Source: Microtetraspora sp. NBRC 16547
GTDB lineage: Bacteria > Actinomycetota > Actinomycetes > Streptosporangiales > Streptosporangiaceae
Direction of reading: 5' to 3'
NCBI RefSeq assembly: GCF_030268965.1
Contig: NZ_BSSE01000015.1
Coordinates: 124,001-188,000, forward strand
DNA length: 64,000 nt
Shown: piece after piece, positions 6,132-9,973 of the stretch
Layout: each line of letters starts with the position of its first letter
Position numbering within the stretch: the first letter of the stretch is position 1
Notes under the pieces: generated by a model
The model's input: only the letters and a program-made list of their open reading frames with translations
What the model was told of the DNA's origin: nothing
Database searches by the model: none
Translations under genes and position numbers: made by a program

Positions 6132-7022
6132 TCAGAGAACGCGGCCCACCATGCGCGCGTACATACGGCCGGGGCTCGGCACCGACGGCGGGTTCAGGAA
6201 GCCCGGCAACATGGGCAGGTCGACGGCGAAAGGCTGCAATCGCTCGTAGAGGGTGACGGCGTCGGCGGGGCGATTCTCCGGCTGCTTCTCCAGCAGCTCG
6301 GCGATCAGCCGGTCAAGCTCGACCGGGACGTCGGGCACCGACGGTGGGAGTTCCTTCACCTGCTTGTCGAACACGGCGTACTCGGTCGGCCCCGTGAACA
6401 GCGGCTTGCCGGTCAGCATCTCGTGCAGGACACAGCCCAGAGCGTAAAGATCGCTCTTCGGGCCGGCGACACCGCGCTGGATCTGCTCCGGCGACATGTA
6501 CGCGGGCGTGCCGAGGATCTGCCCGACACGGGTGAACTGGGCGCCGTCCGACTCGCGCAGCATGGCCAGGCCGAAATCGAGGACCTTGACGCTGCCGTCC
6601 GGGCAGAGCATCAGGTTCGTCGGCTTGAGATCGCGGTGGCAGATGGACAGCGCGTGCGCCGCGGTCAGCACCGCGCACGCCTGGGCGGCGATCGCCGCGG
6701 CCCAGGGGACCGGGAGCGGGCCGTATTCGCTGACCAGGTCGGCGACCGTGACGCCCTCGATGAACTGCATCACCTGGAAGAGGCGCTGATCGTACGTGCC
6801 GAAGTCGTAGAGGACGGGCGCGCCCGGATGCTCCAGGCGGGCGAGAATGCGCGCCTCACGGATGAACCGACGCTCCAGCTCTTCGTCATGACCGCCGGGG
6901 AAGCGGAGGAACTTCACCGCCACCCTGCGGTCGAGACGCCTGTCATGACCGCCGTAGACGGCCCCCATGCCGCCCTGGCCGAGGGGAAGGTCGTCCAGCT
7001 CATACCGGTCGCCGATGACCAT
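6132..7022 (-). CDS. Soluble Ser/Thr protein kinase (PknB-type catalytic domain)
   Basis: A 296-residue protein that is nearly all kinase domain. Visible motifs are the Gly loop GQGGMG, VAVKFL with the ATP-binding Lys, the catalytic loop [11 protein letters not shown], and the activation-segment end [10 protein letters not shown]. There is no transmembrane helix or sensor domain, so it acts in the cytoplasm and must sense through partners. It lies 38 bp downstream of the DNA methyltransferase gene on the same strand, so they are probably one transcript; a PP2C phosphatase is divergent on the other side. GGGAGG precedes the ATG with good spacing. The substrate is unknown; the methyltransferase is the obvious candidate, but that is inference. 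Confidence 0.9.
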
Positions 7023-7060
7023 CCGCCCCTCCCGTCGACCTTTCGGGAAAAGCTACACCT

Positions 7061-9184
7061 TCACGCGCGCGGTCGTAGACGGCCGTCAACGAGCCCCTCC
7101 AACCCCAGCCGGATCAGCACCTCGCCCGCCTCGGCCGCTTCCCTGATGGCGTCCTCCAGAACGGCGAGTCGCCGGAAGGCCATGCCGTACGCCTGCTGCT
7201 CGGCGAGCGAGAGCCGCGGAATGCGCGCCCGGCGGACATCGACGCGGCTGGCCCCCTGATTGACTCGGACGGCGGCGTATTTCAGGAAGCCGGCGAGGAA
7301 CTCGGCGTCGAGCCGGGACCGATCCACGCGATAGAGCGAAAGCTGCGGCCCGAGGACCGCACCTGACTCGCCGACCACTCGCGCGGTCGTCATGGAAGCC
7401 ACGATGTCTCCGGCCGCCACCGTGACGAGGCCGGGCACCGCGCCGGTGCGCCCGGACGGCGAGCCGCCCCGTGCCAGGTCGTCGGCCGTAAGGACGCTCA
7501 AATCACCCGTGTCGGCTGCTTTCAGCACCGAATGCCTGATCGCCACCATCCCGGCCTTGACCAGATCGGTGATGGTCGTCGTCGGGAGATCGGCCCGCCC
7601 GGACAGCACCTCCAGAGCGGGCAGTGCCTCCGCCGCCTCCGCCATCGCCTCGGTGAGATCCCGGAGCCTGCGCCCGGCGGCGGGATAGCGACGGGGGTCG
7701 CTGCGCGGCGAGAGGTGCCGAGCCGGGCTGACATCCACCTCGTCATCGAGCAGGTCGATGATCCGCACGATCCGGGCAGAGCGTGGCAACTCGCCCGGCG
7801 AGGCCACCGCCCCGGCCTGCCTCGCAACGCCACCGTATGTCCGACCTTCGGCCACCGAACCGGCGGACAGCCCGCGTCGGGCATCTTCCGGCGCAGCAGG
7901 ACCGGCCGTGTCCGTGTCGGCGGCACGTTCGCCGGCCGTAAGACTCGTACCGCCATAACCCGCGTCGGCCAGGTAGGTCCGCCAGGCCGACTCGACGATC
8001 GAGAGGTCGTCGGAGGCGTCGGCGAGAAGGATCGACGCCGACGAGCGCTCCCCCGCCTCTGGGCGGCGAAGCAGCCAGAGATCGGGACCTGCCGCCGACA
8101 GGGTGGCGACGGCCCGGAGAGCACCGGCCCGAAGCAGGTTCGCCCGGATGCGCCGGCCGGAACGGCGGGCGGCCGCGGCGGCGGGCATCAGGATCGCCAC
8201 CAGGCCGCCGGGACGCACATGGGCCAGGCAGTGCTGGACCCAGGCCAGCTCGGGCTCGCCCCGGGGCGGCACTCCGTAGTCCCAGCGCGGGTCGCCGATC
8301 AGCTCCTCATGGCCCCACGCCCGCTCGTTGAACGGCGGATCGCACAGGACGACATCCGCCCGTTCACCAGCGAAACCGTCGTGCCGCAGCGAGTCTCCCG
8401 CCACGATCCGCGCGCCGGCGCCCCGCAGCAGCAAGCGCAGCGAGGCGAGCAGCGCGGCGGTCTCGTTGACCTCCTGGCCGAACAGGCGAACCCGCGGCGT
8501 GGCATCCGCGTCCACCGCCTCAGTCCCAGCTTCGGACCCGGCATCGGAACCGGCCAGCAGGAGCGTTCCGACGCCGACCGCCGGATCGAGGATGGTGCCG
8601 CCCGGAGGACACGCCTGCCGGGCGAGGCGCGCCATCAGCGCCGCCACCTCGGCACGCGTGACCGCGAGCCGGCGGGCATGGGCCTCGACATAGCGCTCGC
8701 AGACGAACTCGAACGCGGTGGCGGGCCCGTGCAACGCGGACAGGTCGGCGATCCACCGGATCAGCTGCGCGTCCTCCAGGGCGGTTCCCGGCCGGACGGG
8801 CAGATCGGCCGTCGCCGCCGCGACCTCGCGCGGAAGCCGTGCGGCGAGATCGGGAGCGGCGGCGAGCCGCCGCCAGCCGTCGGGATCGCGCCGCACGTAG
8901 AGGAGGAACGCCCCCGCGAAACCCGCCAGCTCGCCGAGGCGGAGATCGTCCACGGCGGCCCTTAGCCCCTGCCAGACGCGGTCGCCCAGCGAGACCTCGA
9001 AGGACTTGCCGTTCCTGCGCAGCCACTCCTCGATCTCCGGCAAGGAGAACAGCGGGCTGGAGGCCGTGCCCCCGACGGGCTGCGGAAAGTCCTCGTACCG
9101 CCGGCGCCAGTTGCTCACCGCGGCTCTCCCGACGTCGGCTAGGCGGGCGATGTCTCCCGCGTTCACTGTGGCGTCGTGGCTCAT
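7061..9184 (-). CDS. N6-adenine DNA methyltransferase with N-terminal HTH and C-terminal specificity-like region
   Basis: About 707 residues. The first ~60 form a helix-turn-helix-like domain (AGDIARLADVGRAAVSNWRRR). A helical region follows, then the SAM-dependent methyltransferase core with motif I (DPAVGVGTLLLAG, near residue 200) and catalytic motif IV (DVVLCDPPF, near residue 285). The last ~200 residues resemble a type I specificity (HsdS-like) target-recognition half ending in a helix. So modification and specificity functions are fused in one chain. No nuclease motif is seen and no restriction subunit lies nearby. An upstream ATG at 9217 would add 11 residues. The gene is divergent from the phosphatase, with about 57 bp between them, and is followed by the kinase. 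It could act in epigenetic regulation or phage defence; both are inference. Confidence 0.85.
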   Translation of the reverse strand: MSHDATVNAGDIARLADVGRAAVSNWRRRYEDFPQPVGGTASSPLFSLPEIEEWLRRNGKSFEVSLGDRVWQGLRAAVDDLRLGELAGFAGAFLLYVRRDPDGWRRLAAAPDLAARLPREVAAATADLPVRPGTALEDAQLIRWIADLSALHGPATAFEFVCERYVEAHARRLAVTRAEVAALMARLARQACPPGGTILDPAVGVGTLLLAGSDAGSEAGTEAVDADATPRVRLFGQEVNETAALLASLRLLLRGAGARIVAGDSLRHDGFAGERADVVLCDPPFNERAWGHEELIGDPRWDYGVPPRGEPELAWVQHCLAHVRPGGLVAILMPAAAAARRSGRRIRANLLRAGALRAVATLSAAGPDLWLLRRPEAGERSSASILLADASDDLSIVESAWRTYLADAGYGGTSLTAGERAADTDTAGPAAPEDARRGLSAGSVAEGRTYGGVARQAGAVASPGELPRSARIVRIIDLLDDEVDVSPARHLSPRSDPRRYPAAGRRLRDLTEAMAEAAEALPALEVLSGRADLPTTTITDLVKAGMVAIRHSVLKAADTGDLSVLTADDLARGGSPSGRTGAVPGLVTVAAGDIVASMTTARVVGESGAVLGPQLSLYRVDRSRLDAEFLAGFLKYAAVRVNQGASRVDVRRARIPRLSLAEQQAYGMAFRRLAVLEDAIREAAEAGEVLIRLGLEGLVDGRLRPRA

Positions 9185-9241
9185 GACGGCCAGCTTAGCT
9201 TGCGCTTGTGAAGTCATTCAACCAGTGCTTTACTCAAAACC

Positions 9242-9973
9242 ATGACGCACAACCGACTTCGCTACGCTTCGGGAACCGACGTCGGCCGTACCCGGAAGAA
9301 GAACGAGGACTCGTTCCACACCGGGGCGCGACTGCTCGCGATAGCCGACGGGATGGGTGGTCACGGTAATGGAGAGGTGGCCAGCGCGGCGGCCATCGCC
9401 GCCCTGGCCGCCCTGGAGGAGGGGCCCTTTCCCGAGGACGCCGTCGCCGCCCTTGATGAGGCGGTGCAAGAGGCCAGCCGCAGGTTGCGAGATCTGGCGG
9501 TCCGCGACCCCGCCCTTGAGCGGATGGGCACGACGATCACCGCGATGCTCTGGGACGGTGCACGCTTCGCGCTGGCGCACGTGGGCGACTCGCGGGCGTA
9601 CATGCTGCGTGACGGCGCCCTCTACCAGATCACACGCGATCACACTCTTGTCCAGTCGCTGGTGGACGACGGTCGGATGAGTCCGGACCAGGCGGCGAAG
9701 CACCCCAACCGGTCACTCCTGTTGCGCGCGGTGGAGACGAGCGGTCTGGCCGACCCTGATCTCTCCCTCCGCGGAGCACATCCCGGTGACCGCTACCTGC
9801 TCTGCTCGGACGGCCTGACCGGGGTGCTCGAGCCGGAGACCCTGCATCGCGTGCTCACCACGGTGGCCGACCGGGAGGAGGCGGTCCGCCAGTTCATCGA
9901 GCTGGCCAACGAGGCGGGCGGCCCAGACAACATCAGCGTCATCGTCGCCGACGTCGAGGTGGCCCCCGCCTGA
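9242..9973 (+). CDS. PP2C-family Ser/Thr protein phosphatase
   Basis: A 243-residue cytoplasmic metal-dependent phosphatase with all core motifs: RKKNEDS near the N-terminus, DGMGGHGNGE, MGTTIT, HVGDSRAY, LLCSDGLT and GGPDNISVI. These hold the Asp residues that bind the Mn/Mg ions. Its length equals the bare catalytic domain, with no membrane tail, unlike PstP. It is transcribed away from the methyltransferase/kinase operon, and the short gap probably holds both promoters. It is the natural antagonist of the adjacent kinase; the pairing is inferred from position. Confidence 0.92.
   Translation: MTHNRLRYASGTDVGRTRKKNEDSFHTGARLLAIADGMGGHGNGEVASAAAIAALAALEEGPFPEDAVAALDEAVQEASRRLRDLAVRDPALERMGTTITAMLWDGARFALAHVGDSRAYMLRDGALYQITRDHTLVQSLVDDGRMSPDQAAKHPNRSLLLRAVETSGLADPDLSLRGAHPGDRYLLCSDGLTGVLEPETLHRVLTTVADREEAVRQFIELANEAGGPDNISVIVADVEVAPA

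Follow-up and report, generated by a model that had tools for sequence, protein, structure and literature searches.

Gene content and organization of the locus

Our analysis of a 64,000-nucleotide stretch of Microtetraspora sp. NBRC 16547 DNA, hereafter the window, revealed a PP2C phosphatase gene divergent from a gene encoding an adenine methyltransferase with a winged helix-turn-helix (wHTH) and a fused target-recognition domain (TRD), which is followed by a Ser/Thr kinase gene; the motifs of these proteins are intact (Table 1). The original prediction, made from the letters and open reading frames, had placed the methyltransferase and kinase in the same orientation across 38 bp, with a bare PP2C diverging from them, and the strands, coordinates, and exact length of the gap all agreed with it. 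A Shine-Dalgarno-like run (GGGAGGGG) is present in this gap, upstream of the kinase. The methyltransferase probably starts at position 9184 (codon 12; 707 aa) rather than at 9217, because a TANNNT box lies 7 nt before codon 12, no Shine-Dalgarno-like run precedes it, and the alignment of relatives agrees; in that case, the message would probably be leaderless and the divergent spacer would measure 57 bp. A DUF222/HNH gene (3740-5956) was considered as a module nuclease and rejected, since outside the genus of the window (L035-L038) it was not found next to the module. KdpD and flotillin were likewise dismissed as module parts, being found at the module only in that genus among the loci opened.

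Table 1. Features of the kinase-methyltransferase-PP2C locus, with positions in the window.
Feature	Position	Strand	Description
Ser/Thr kinase (Hanks-type, soluble)	6132..7022	-	296 aa; catalytic motifs intact; Pkinase 155 bits
Kinase C-terminal tail, residues 266-296 (LPxLPGFL...PSPxRMYAR.VGRV)	6135..6227	-	Ends in modelled helix
Methyltransferase ORF as listed	7061..9217	-	718 aa; N6_Mtase 103 bits
HsdS-like half: TRD (~546-667) and coiled helix (671-710)	7070..7777	-	Assigned from structure model
N6-adenine methyltransferase domain, HsdM-like, residues 180-418	7964..8680	-	Profile and model
Motif IV DPPF, residues 293-296	8330..8341	-	
Winged HTH of methyltransferase, residues 18-70	9008..9166	-	Model and alignment; absent from the original prediction
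TAAGCT, likely -10 box of leaderless methyltransferase promoter	9192..9197	-	TTGAAT 18 nt upstream, inside the 30-bp element
Conserved 30-bp element CTTGTGAAGTNNTTCAACCARTGNTTTACT	9205..9234	+	3' end 7 nt before PP2C ATG
PP2C phosphatase, bare catalytic domain	9242..9973	+	243 aa; PP2C_2 51 bits

Linkage and distribution across actinomycetes

Unbiased linkage counts came from a 60-genome set, a 200-genome set, and the first 20 loci picked by their methyltransferase. The kinase type was found in 14 of the 60 genomes (the window's own and 59 relatives), with the methyltransferase and PP2C adjacent in all 14, and the first 20 loci listed included 19 with an adjacent PP2C and 18 with a kinase of the class; among all 80 loci picked in this way, 43 had the PP2C and 39 had both the PP2C and the kinase. 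Of 200 family genomes, 82 carried the conserved 30-bp element, 80 the kinase, and 79 both. Within the 31 genera of this set, the element occurred in all genomes of 12 genera and in none of 19, although a genus scored as absent may hold rare copies because at most 10 genomes per genus were included. Mixed presence within a genus was observed in 0 genera for the element and 2 for the kinase, compared with 23 for DISARM DrmA. The kinase, counted without regard to its neighbours, was present in 77 of 80 genomes of the genus Amycolatopsis, whereas the Actinomadura genus of locus L122 had it in only 6 of 65, which weakens the all-or-none rule by genus. The original prediction had turned on whether the three genes are conserved together in relatives, and such conservation was observed in genera of the Streptosporangiaceae, in part of Actinomadura, and at loci from Pseudonocardiaceae.

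Class 1 comprised 57 loci with a kinase score above 450 or a PP2C score above 200; because these scores define the class, counts within the 57, which represent related species rather than independent draws, are not independent evidence of linkage. Of 20 loci inspected early, 13 bore the PP2C and were chosen after it had been seen beside most; the other 7 have no adjacent PP2C. The trio is retained in loci where the PP2C is co-directional. The kinase is missing beside the PP2C and methyltransferase in five of the 57 loci (L041, L069, L076, L119, and L124), and no kinase of the module class was found elsewhere in those genomes. Locus L079, which the rule places in class 2, resembles a decayed module member, and L113, named Nocardia aurea, falls within Nonomuraea, perhaps as a stray contig. 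Carriage by plasmids or phages was rejected: plasmid records gave 596 matches, of which the one covering at least 80% of the query is an 11.85-Mb Nonomuraea sequence, and three phage records matched over at most 25% of the query, so that no copy spanning the protein was found on a phage or a true plasmid in the two collections searched.

A conserved element between the divergent genes

The 30-bp element, which is likely the PP2C promoter and a probable operator, was identical at 20 of 30 positions in 47/47 loci aligned, and each of the 82 carrier genomes held one copy. The alignment script detected a divergent PP2C in 49 of the 57 loci, missing it in L121 and L126, where the gene-order survey finds it. 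With ATG taken as its start codon, the PP2C begins 6-7 nt from the element; the script counted GTG starts as well. A TANNNT box preceded the methyltransferase start in 51/57 loci against a shuffled background of 7.9%, a test that covered the methyltransferase side only. Scanning with a sigma-70 consensus returned no promoter, and the proposed PP2C -10 box, TTTACT, does not fit TANNNT. By eye, TGA-N6-TCA recurs within the element in the 47 aligned loci, a shape that a one-TRD dimer could read. The wHTH need not be what binds the element, because it is also conserved in a sister class of loci that is without the element. The loci of G012, G015, and G031, whose methyltransferases read HPPF, retain the element with one mismatch.

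Features of the three proteins

Between-genera identity, which like the class counts is slightly inflated because some loci come from the same genome (identical kinases in L047/L123, L050/L114, and L049/L080) and which for loci with two PP2Cs was taken from the better-scoring one, not always the adjacent one, reached 83% for the wHTH, the best-conserved part of the methyltransferase, 81% for the kinase, and 54% for the TRD, which remains alignable across genera and is not swapped. The wHTH matched PDB entries weakly (8fje, E 0.0069; 2jml and the AlpA-family 8c3t, E 0.14), as it did the mad1 PADLOC model (E 2.9e-6), and its residue S35 is Ser in 57/57 module loci and 45/45 sister-class loci (102/102). 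In the structure model, the last third of the methyltransferase resembles half of an HsdS, with one TRD and a coiled helix. Motif IV is canonical ([DN]PP[FY]) in 52 of the 57 module methyltransferases and reads HPPF, EPPF, or DPPV in the other 5, suggesting that methylation may not be a function common to all members; 16 of 45 sister-class members are without [DN]PP[FY], one of them carrying SPPF. The linker at residues 422-471 was discarded as a phosphosite region since other genera have only a short linker or none.

In the kinase tail, Y288 is invariant in 19/19 aligned kinases, and other methyltransferase-linked kinases carry a related tail. The PD-T4-6 PADLOC model matched the kinase at 321 bits (E 1.9e-96), a weak diagnosis given that this model has no library cut-off and that 34 models match the kinase. 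If the phospho-switch proposed below is correct, caution is warranted in annotation, as PADLOC models label the kinase PD-T4-6 and the methyltransferase type I R-M. The PP2C carries the metal-binding motifs RxxNED, ADGMGG, and GGPDN and shares 61% identity with a longer PP2C, which we take to be PstP-like, encoded at another site of the genome; it scored 222.3 bits against NF033484 (Stp1/IreP/PstP-type), just below the cut-off of 230, and above the cut-off for Pfam PP2C_2.

Neighbours, sister class, and ancestry

Only the three module genes recur at the locus across genera, and the ATPase, PglZ, and nuclease genes noted as lacking in the original prediction indeed do not recur beside the module. 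Ten defence probes found defence-type genes near 0/57 module loci versus 23/45 sister-class loci, a comparison that favours the sister class because the probes were derived from its loci. A fairer check, with PADLOC on the nearest flanking gene on each side of 10 module loci, gave matches in 0 of 20 genes. Flanks extended about 6 kb on each side for some loci and up to 9 kb for others, with less at contig ends. The sister class comprises wHTH-methyltransferases with a kinase at loci of the DISARM, type I R-M, and UvrD/Dru types; its methyltransferases are built like that of the module, and its kinases have a related motif in their tails. It differs in having effector-type genes nearby in 23/45 loci, no adjacent PP2C, and no 30-bp element, and three of its kinases, inspected over their whole length, extend further at the C-terminus with a segment that resembles TPRs by eye. 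The original prediction did not mention that loci of these kinds harbour more distant relatives of the methyltransferase-kinase pair. In a tree rooted on other kinases, class-1 kinases formed one clade (support 99) inside the methyltransferase-linked kinases; this nesting rests on the outgroup tree, whose outgroup is five long rows with support 43, the first kinase tree having been midpoint-rooted.

Proposed function and alternative explanations

We propose, with moderate confidence, that the module is an effector-less, autoregulated phospho-switch for gene control, domesticated and vertically inherited in most lineages. This proposal builds on what was observed of the locus, namely which genes it contains and how they are linked, the shared element, a presence close to genus-core, and the ancestry of the kinase among defence-linked kinases, together with motifs that are intact in most members. 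The wHTH/methyltransferase/TRD protein would bind a specific DNA site and, in most lineages, methylate adenine there. The downstream soluble kinase would phosphorylate the methyltransferase, and the PP2C would strip phosphates from the kinase activation loop, the methyltransferase, or both, such that the phosphorylation state would decide site binding or methylation, perhaps including the shared promoter region. The module may have arisen from restriction-type defence systems whose kinase-methyltransferase core lost its effector and gained the phosphatase. A more ambitious version, which we advance only tentatively and consider rather unlikely, is a new kind of core epigenetic switch in which such a domesticated core, having gained a PP2C of its own along with a divergent promoter/operator that became fixed, would directly couple Hanks-kinase signalling to site-specific adenine methylation, its own promoter included.

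Between the two uses offered by the original prediction, defence and gene control, we favour the latter because presence is near all-or-none by genus (with 77/80 in Amycolatopsis), defence-type neighbours are absent from the flanks checked with probes and PADLOC, and the collections searched hold no phage or true plasmid copy. These observations, together with the contrast to DrmA and a TRD that is not swapped between genera, make it unlikely that the module is a minimal Pgl-like phage defence, in which an infection-sensing kinase would phosphorylate the methyltransferase to the harm of phage or host, with the PP2C restraining it as PglZ does PglX. The defence idea draws on the occurrence of both families in DISARM, type I R-M, UvrD, and Dru-type loci, on the PD-T4-6 match, and on the cooperation of kinase, methyltransferase, and toxicity-restraining PglZ in Pgl, as described in PMC4365076. 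The patchy presence in Actinomadura also speaks for defence over gene control, and the module may be a stable core system with a defence role.

The Actinomadura pattern, the five loci without the kinase, and the five with an altered motif IV are counterpoints to the phospho-switch, and the last of these touches a quite unlikely alternative, namely that the wHTH-methyltransferase serves mainly as a sequence-specific DNA-binding regulator whose binding is gated by the kinase and PP2C, methylation being secondary or lost. The conservation of the wHTH, the invariant S35, the element kept in the HPPF loci, and the non-canonical motifs of the sister class are consistent with such a regulator, whereas canonical motif IV in 52/57 members argues for retained catalysis. 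The kinase and PP2C could instead be a general signalling pair fixed by chance beside an orphan methyltransferase with no functional link; both families are known to act on many substrates, and five loci do without the kinase. Co-occurrence over many genera, persistence through changes in gene order, the shared element, and the kinship of the kinase tail to those of other methyltransferase-linked kinases render this improbable indeed. If the phospho-switch is correct, the module would offer a tractable case of phosphorylation reversibly controlling an epigenetic mark and would illustrate how a restriction module may turn into a regulator.

Comparison with known systems

We know of no case in bacteria where an orphan DNA methyltransferase is stably accompanied, throughout whole genera, by a Ser/Thr kinase and a phosphatase dedicated to it; our literature searches found no such pairing and no description of the kinase-PP2C-methyltransferase trio. 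Like Pgl/BREX type 2 (PglW, PglX, PglY ATPase, and PglZ), the module combines a protein of an adenine-methyltransferase family (Z 18.9 against the BrxX fold) with a Ser/Thr kinase and a possible restraining partner. Unlike it, the module has a PP2C instead of PglZ, no PglZ, ATPase, or helicase beside it, a small and soluble kinase (BREX_PglW 51.8 bits against a cut-off of 990), and near genus-core presence in most lineages; PglZ and the PglY/BrxC ATPase were not found among seven window proteins scanned or 20 flanking genes of 10 other loci.

With MADS, whose gene roles are taken in part from profile names, the module shares a methyltransferase matching mad2 (9.6e-17), a kinase domain matching mad6 (1e-61), and a wHTH weakly matching mad1. 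It differs in the fusion of the mad1- and mad2-like parts with a TRD and in the added PP2C; the kinase falls short of the MAD6-type cut-off (128.2 against 460 bits), and a PADLOC scan of five window proteins and 20 flanking genes of 10 loci found no other MADS genes. The resemblance to type I R-M lies in a methyltransferase domain (Z ~29 to HsdM chains) and an HsdS-like half on one chain, and the difference in the added wHTH, an hsdM equivalog score of 22.8 against 242.75, and the lack of HsdR, whose probe matched 0/57 module loci within the flanks covered. Because their defining genes are absent from the proteins and flanks scanned, the module was not assigned to Pgl, MADS, or type I R-M.

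CamA, CcrM, and Dam are core orphan adenine methyltransferases. The module methyltransferase resembles these in being solitary, with CamA among its fold matches, no cognate restriction gene within the flanks covered, and DPPF intact in the window. The module is near-universal within many genera, though its kinase is in only 6 of 65 genomes of the Actinomadura genus. The methyltransferase departs from the core orphans in having its own kinase and phosphatase, a wHTH, and kinship to R-M- and DISARM-linked families.

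Gene arrangement and structural model

The window (G000:C15:124001-188000, where G000 is its own genome and C15 the contig) belongs to a 7.8-Mb genome. The original observation of a co-oriented methyltransferase and kinase separated by 38 bp, with a divergent PP2C, was borne out in the window. Reading of the window's proteins revealed intact motifs in the kinase (GQGGMG, VAVK, HRDLKP, DFG), the methyltransferase (DPAVGVGT, DPPF) and the phosphatase (RKKNED, ADGMGG, GGPDN). Modelled with AlphaFold2 (mean pLDDT 82), the methyltransferase matched the folds of HsdM chains best (Z ~29), followed by M.BseCI, CamA and BrxX. 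Two tandem repeats also lie in coding sequence of the window.

Features of the module, its spacer and the surrounding window
Feature	Position	Strand	Details
Soluble Ser/Thr kinase	within 6132-9973	minus	296 aa
Methyltransferase	within 6132-9973	minus	718 aa as listed; 38 bp upstream of kinase
PP2C phosphatase	within 6132-9973	plus	243 aa; bare catalytic domain; divergent from methyltransferase
Winged HTH (wHTH) of methyltransferase	residues 20-68		AlphaFold2 model; helical part next
HsdM-like catalytic domain	residues 180-418		AlphaFold2 model
Linker of methyltransferase	residues 422-471		AlphaFold2 model; low confidence
HsdS-like half	after linker		AlphaFold2 model; one target-recognition domain (TRD) and long helix
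30-bp element CTTGTGAAGTNNTTCAACCARTGNTTTACT	9205-9234		within 57-bp spacer; ends 6-7 nt before PP2C ATG
Tandem repeat, 12 bp x 6.2	10870-10943		KdpD C-terminus (SHTA repeats)
Tandem repeat, 15 bp x 6.7	5243-5343		DUF222/HNH protein

Corrected methyltransferase start and probable promoter element

A TANNNT box ending 5-8 nt before an in-frame methyltransferase start was present in 51 of 57 class-1 loci (those resembling the window's module, with a kinase score >450 or a PP2C score >200), against 7.9% in shuffled upstream DNA. In the window, TAAGCT precedes the ATG at 9184 by 7 nt, with TTGAAT 18 nt further upstream; this start, which corrects the listed one, therefore sets the spacer to PP2C at 57 bp. 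Within the spacer, the element is identical at 20 of its 30 positions across 47/47 matching loci (≤5 mismatches, from 49 in which the script found a divergent PP2C). Its fixed distance to the start suggests a leaderless PP2C promoter, and the conservation of its inner part suggests that it is also an operator. In the window's genus, the methyltransferase -35 falls inside the element.

Linkage of the three genes

Methyltransferase relatives were found in 36 of 60 genomes (the window's own plus 59) and the window-type kinase (E ≤ 1e-150) in 14, with methyltransferase and PP2C adjoining it in 14/14. Co-conservation of the three genes, the check set by the original note, was seen in many genera. 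One genome, G015, carried methyltransferase and PP2C without the kinase. Among 20 stretches opened, 13 had an adjacent PP2C, 12 of these with all three genes, and the remaining 7 had no adjacent PP2C. In the named set, 19 of the first 20 loci listed had PP2C and 18 the class kinase; over all 80 loci, the counts were 43 and 39. Genera with the trio include Streptosporangium, Nonomuraea, Microbispora, Planotetraspora, Sphaerisporangium, Acrocarpospora, Herbidospora and Planobispora. Gene order was unchanged and the element diverged in Amycolatopsis, Kutzneria, Umezawaea, Allokutzneria and Tamaricihabitans. Actinomadura instead has all the genes in one direction, in the order PP2C, methyltransferase and, if it is there, kinase; no copy of the element was detected in the module loci of this genus. 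Because the trio has persisted where the genes were rearranged and the shared promoter was lost, it is probably kept together by function. Flanks were common to loci of one genus; across genera, the families of the trio were the only narrow ones to recur in the loci compared. Some genomes carry another PP2C gene of this type ~2 kb or less from the module's own (L043:12905-13612, L045:7237-7938 and L059:3025-3720).

Distribution and inheritance

Across 200 genomes of the window's family, the element occurred in 82, one copy per genome, and its reversed control pattern in none; the kinase occurred in 80, together with the element in 79. The element stood without the kinase in G015, G073 and G178, and the kinase without the element in G091. 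Among the 31 genera with at least two sampled genomes, the element was present in all genomes of 12 and in none of 19, leaving 0/31 mixed (shuffles: mean 24.6, minimum 19), and the kinase was mixed in 2/31. DISARM DrmA, present in 68 of the same genomes, was mixed in 23/31 (shuffled mean 23.6). In most lineages, the module is distributed like a core gene set and unlike a mobile defence system. Outside the family, the kinase (counted irrespective of its neighbours) was found in 77/80 genomes from the genus that includes Amycolatopsis antarctica, whereas that of Actinomadura litoris had it in only 6/65, so the module is patchy there; the former count raises and the latter lowers the odds of the main reading about equally, leaving it unchanged on balance. 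The Actinomadura pattern looks like loss or late gain. Three loci of this genus (L076, L119, L124) retain PP2C and methyltransferase with the kinase missing, and the module may be decaying or have been gained late. Locus L113, from a record titled Nocardia aurea, sits on a short contig with a perfect element and a module grouping inside Nonomuraea, perhaps through contamination or misnaming.

Kinase ancestry and class-2 relatives

The 52 class-1 kinases form one clade (SH-aLRT 99), nested within a cluster of all 85 methyltransferase-linked kinases in a tree rooted on five other kinases, whose branches are long and whose own support is 43. The sister class (class 2, n=45) comprises related wHTH-methyltransferase and kinase loci in which neither an adjacent PP2C nor the element was found. 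Defence probes, drawn from class 2 itself and hence biased toward it, matched 23/45 class-2 and 0/57 class-1 loci within the flanks examined. The overlapping class-2 matches, with families named via Pfam and PADLOC on representatives, were UvrD helicase (15), DrmA, DrmB and DrmC (6), SNF2-type (3), Hsd genes (2), a kinase-DruE-like fusion (1) and an S68-type helicase (1). PADLOC, a fairer test, matched 0/20 proteins at E 1e-5 (those encoded by the immediately flanking genes, left and right, of 10 class-1 loci).

The window's own genome also holds a class-2 locus on contig C8 (L136:1426-11895), an operon-like run of wHTH-methyltransferase, HsdM, HsdS, HsdR and kinase; here a paired methyltransferase and kinase enclose a type I R-M system, and restriction may be gated by the kinase. 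Six loci (L050, L051, L093, L104, L105, L114) combine DISARM genes DrmA, DrmB and DrmC with the wHTH-methyltransferase and kinase. Motif IV is degenerate (APPF, VPPY, GPPS) in L050/L114, L093 and L105 and kept in L051 and L104; where it is degenerate, the methyltransferase may therefore be a DNA-recognition pseudo-enzyme. At L053:11044-17280 (G027), a 2079-aa protein joins a Ser/Thr kinase to a DruE-like DEAD/MZB helicase; nuclease-like by eye at its C-terminal end, it adjoins a wHTH-methyltransferase with HPPF.

Conservation and proposed mechanism

Mean identity between genera was 83% for the wHTH, 81% for the kinase domain and 76% for the kinase tail, followed by the methyltransferase domain (68%), PP2C (62%) and TRD (54%); the slowest-changing parts are those with a presumed role in signalling and in contacting DNA. 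Motif IV ([DN]PP[FY]) was kept in 52/57 class-1 and 29/45 class-2 methyltransferases. The RMYA motif of the kinase tail, modelled as a helix, is a candidate docking element; its Y288 was invariant in 19/19 aligned kinases of both classes. The foremost candidate phosphosites, judged by conservation, are S35 in the wHTH (Ser in 57/57 class-1 and 45/45 class-2 methyltransferases), T51 (Thr or Ser in 57/57 and 44/45), T187 (Thr in 57/57 and 38/45) and S76 (Ser in 56/57 class-1; Pro in 31/45 class-2).

The analysis shows the module's anatomy, linkage, promoter element, distribution and kinase ancestry; from these we infer its phosphorylation, methylation and target genes. Most likely, the kinase would phosphorylate the methyltransferase, and PP2C would undo this phosphorylation or reset the kinase. 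The phosphorylation state would then govern whether specific DNA sites are bound or methylated, perhaps the shared promoter among them. Against this mechanism stand five loci that have PP2C and methyltransferase and have lost the kinase, their genomes lacking a class kinase at any other locus too; the HPPF form of motif IV in the G012, G015 and G031 loci; and the patchiness in Actinomadura.

Comparison with known systems

The module is real and conserved, and our literature search found no description of a kinase-methyltransferase-PP2C trio; the main text of a 2026 survey of BREX diversity nowhere mentions PP2C (PMC12839542). In Pgl, a kinase is paired with a methyltransferase that PglZ restrains (PMC4365076). 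The module shares such a pair, but the defining genes of Pgl were not found at it. Likewise, the defining genes of MADS were not found there, although MADS models match parts of its methyltransferase and kinase. The module is an orphan methyltransferase with what appears to be dedicated phospho-control, related to restriction machinery.
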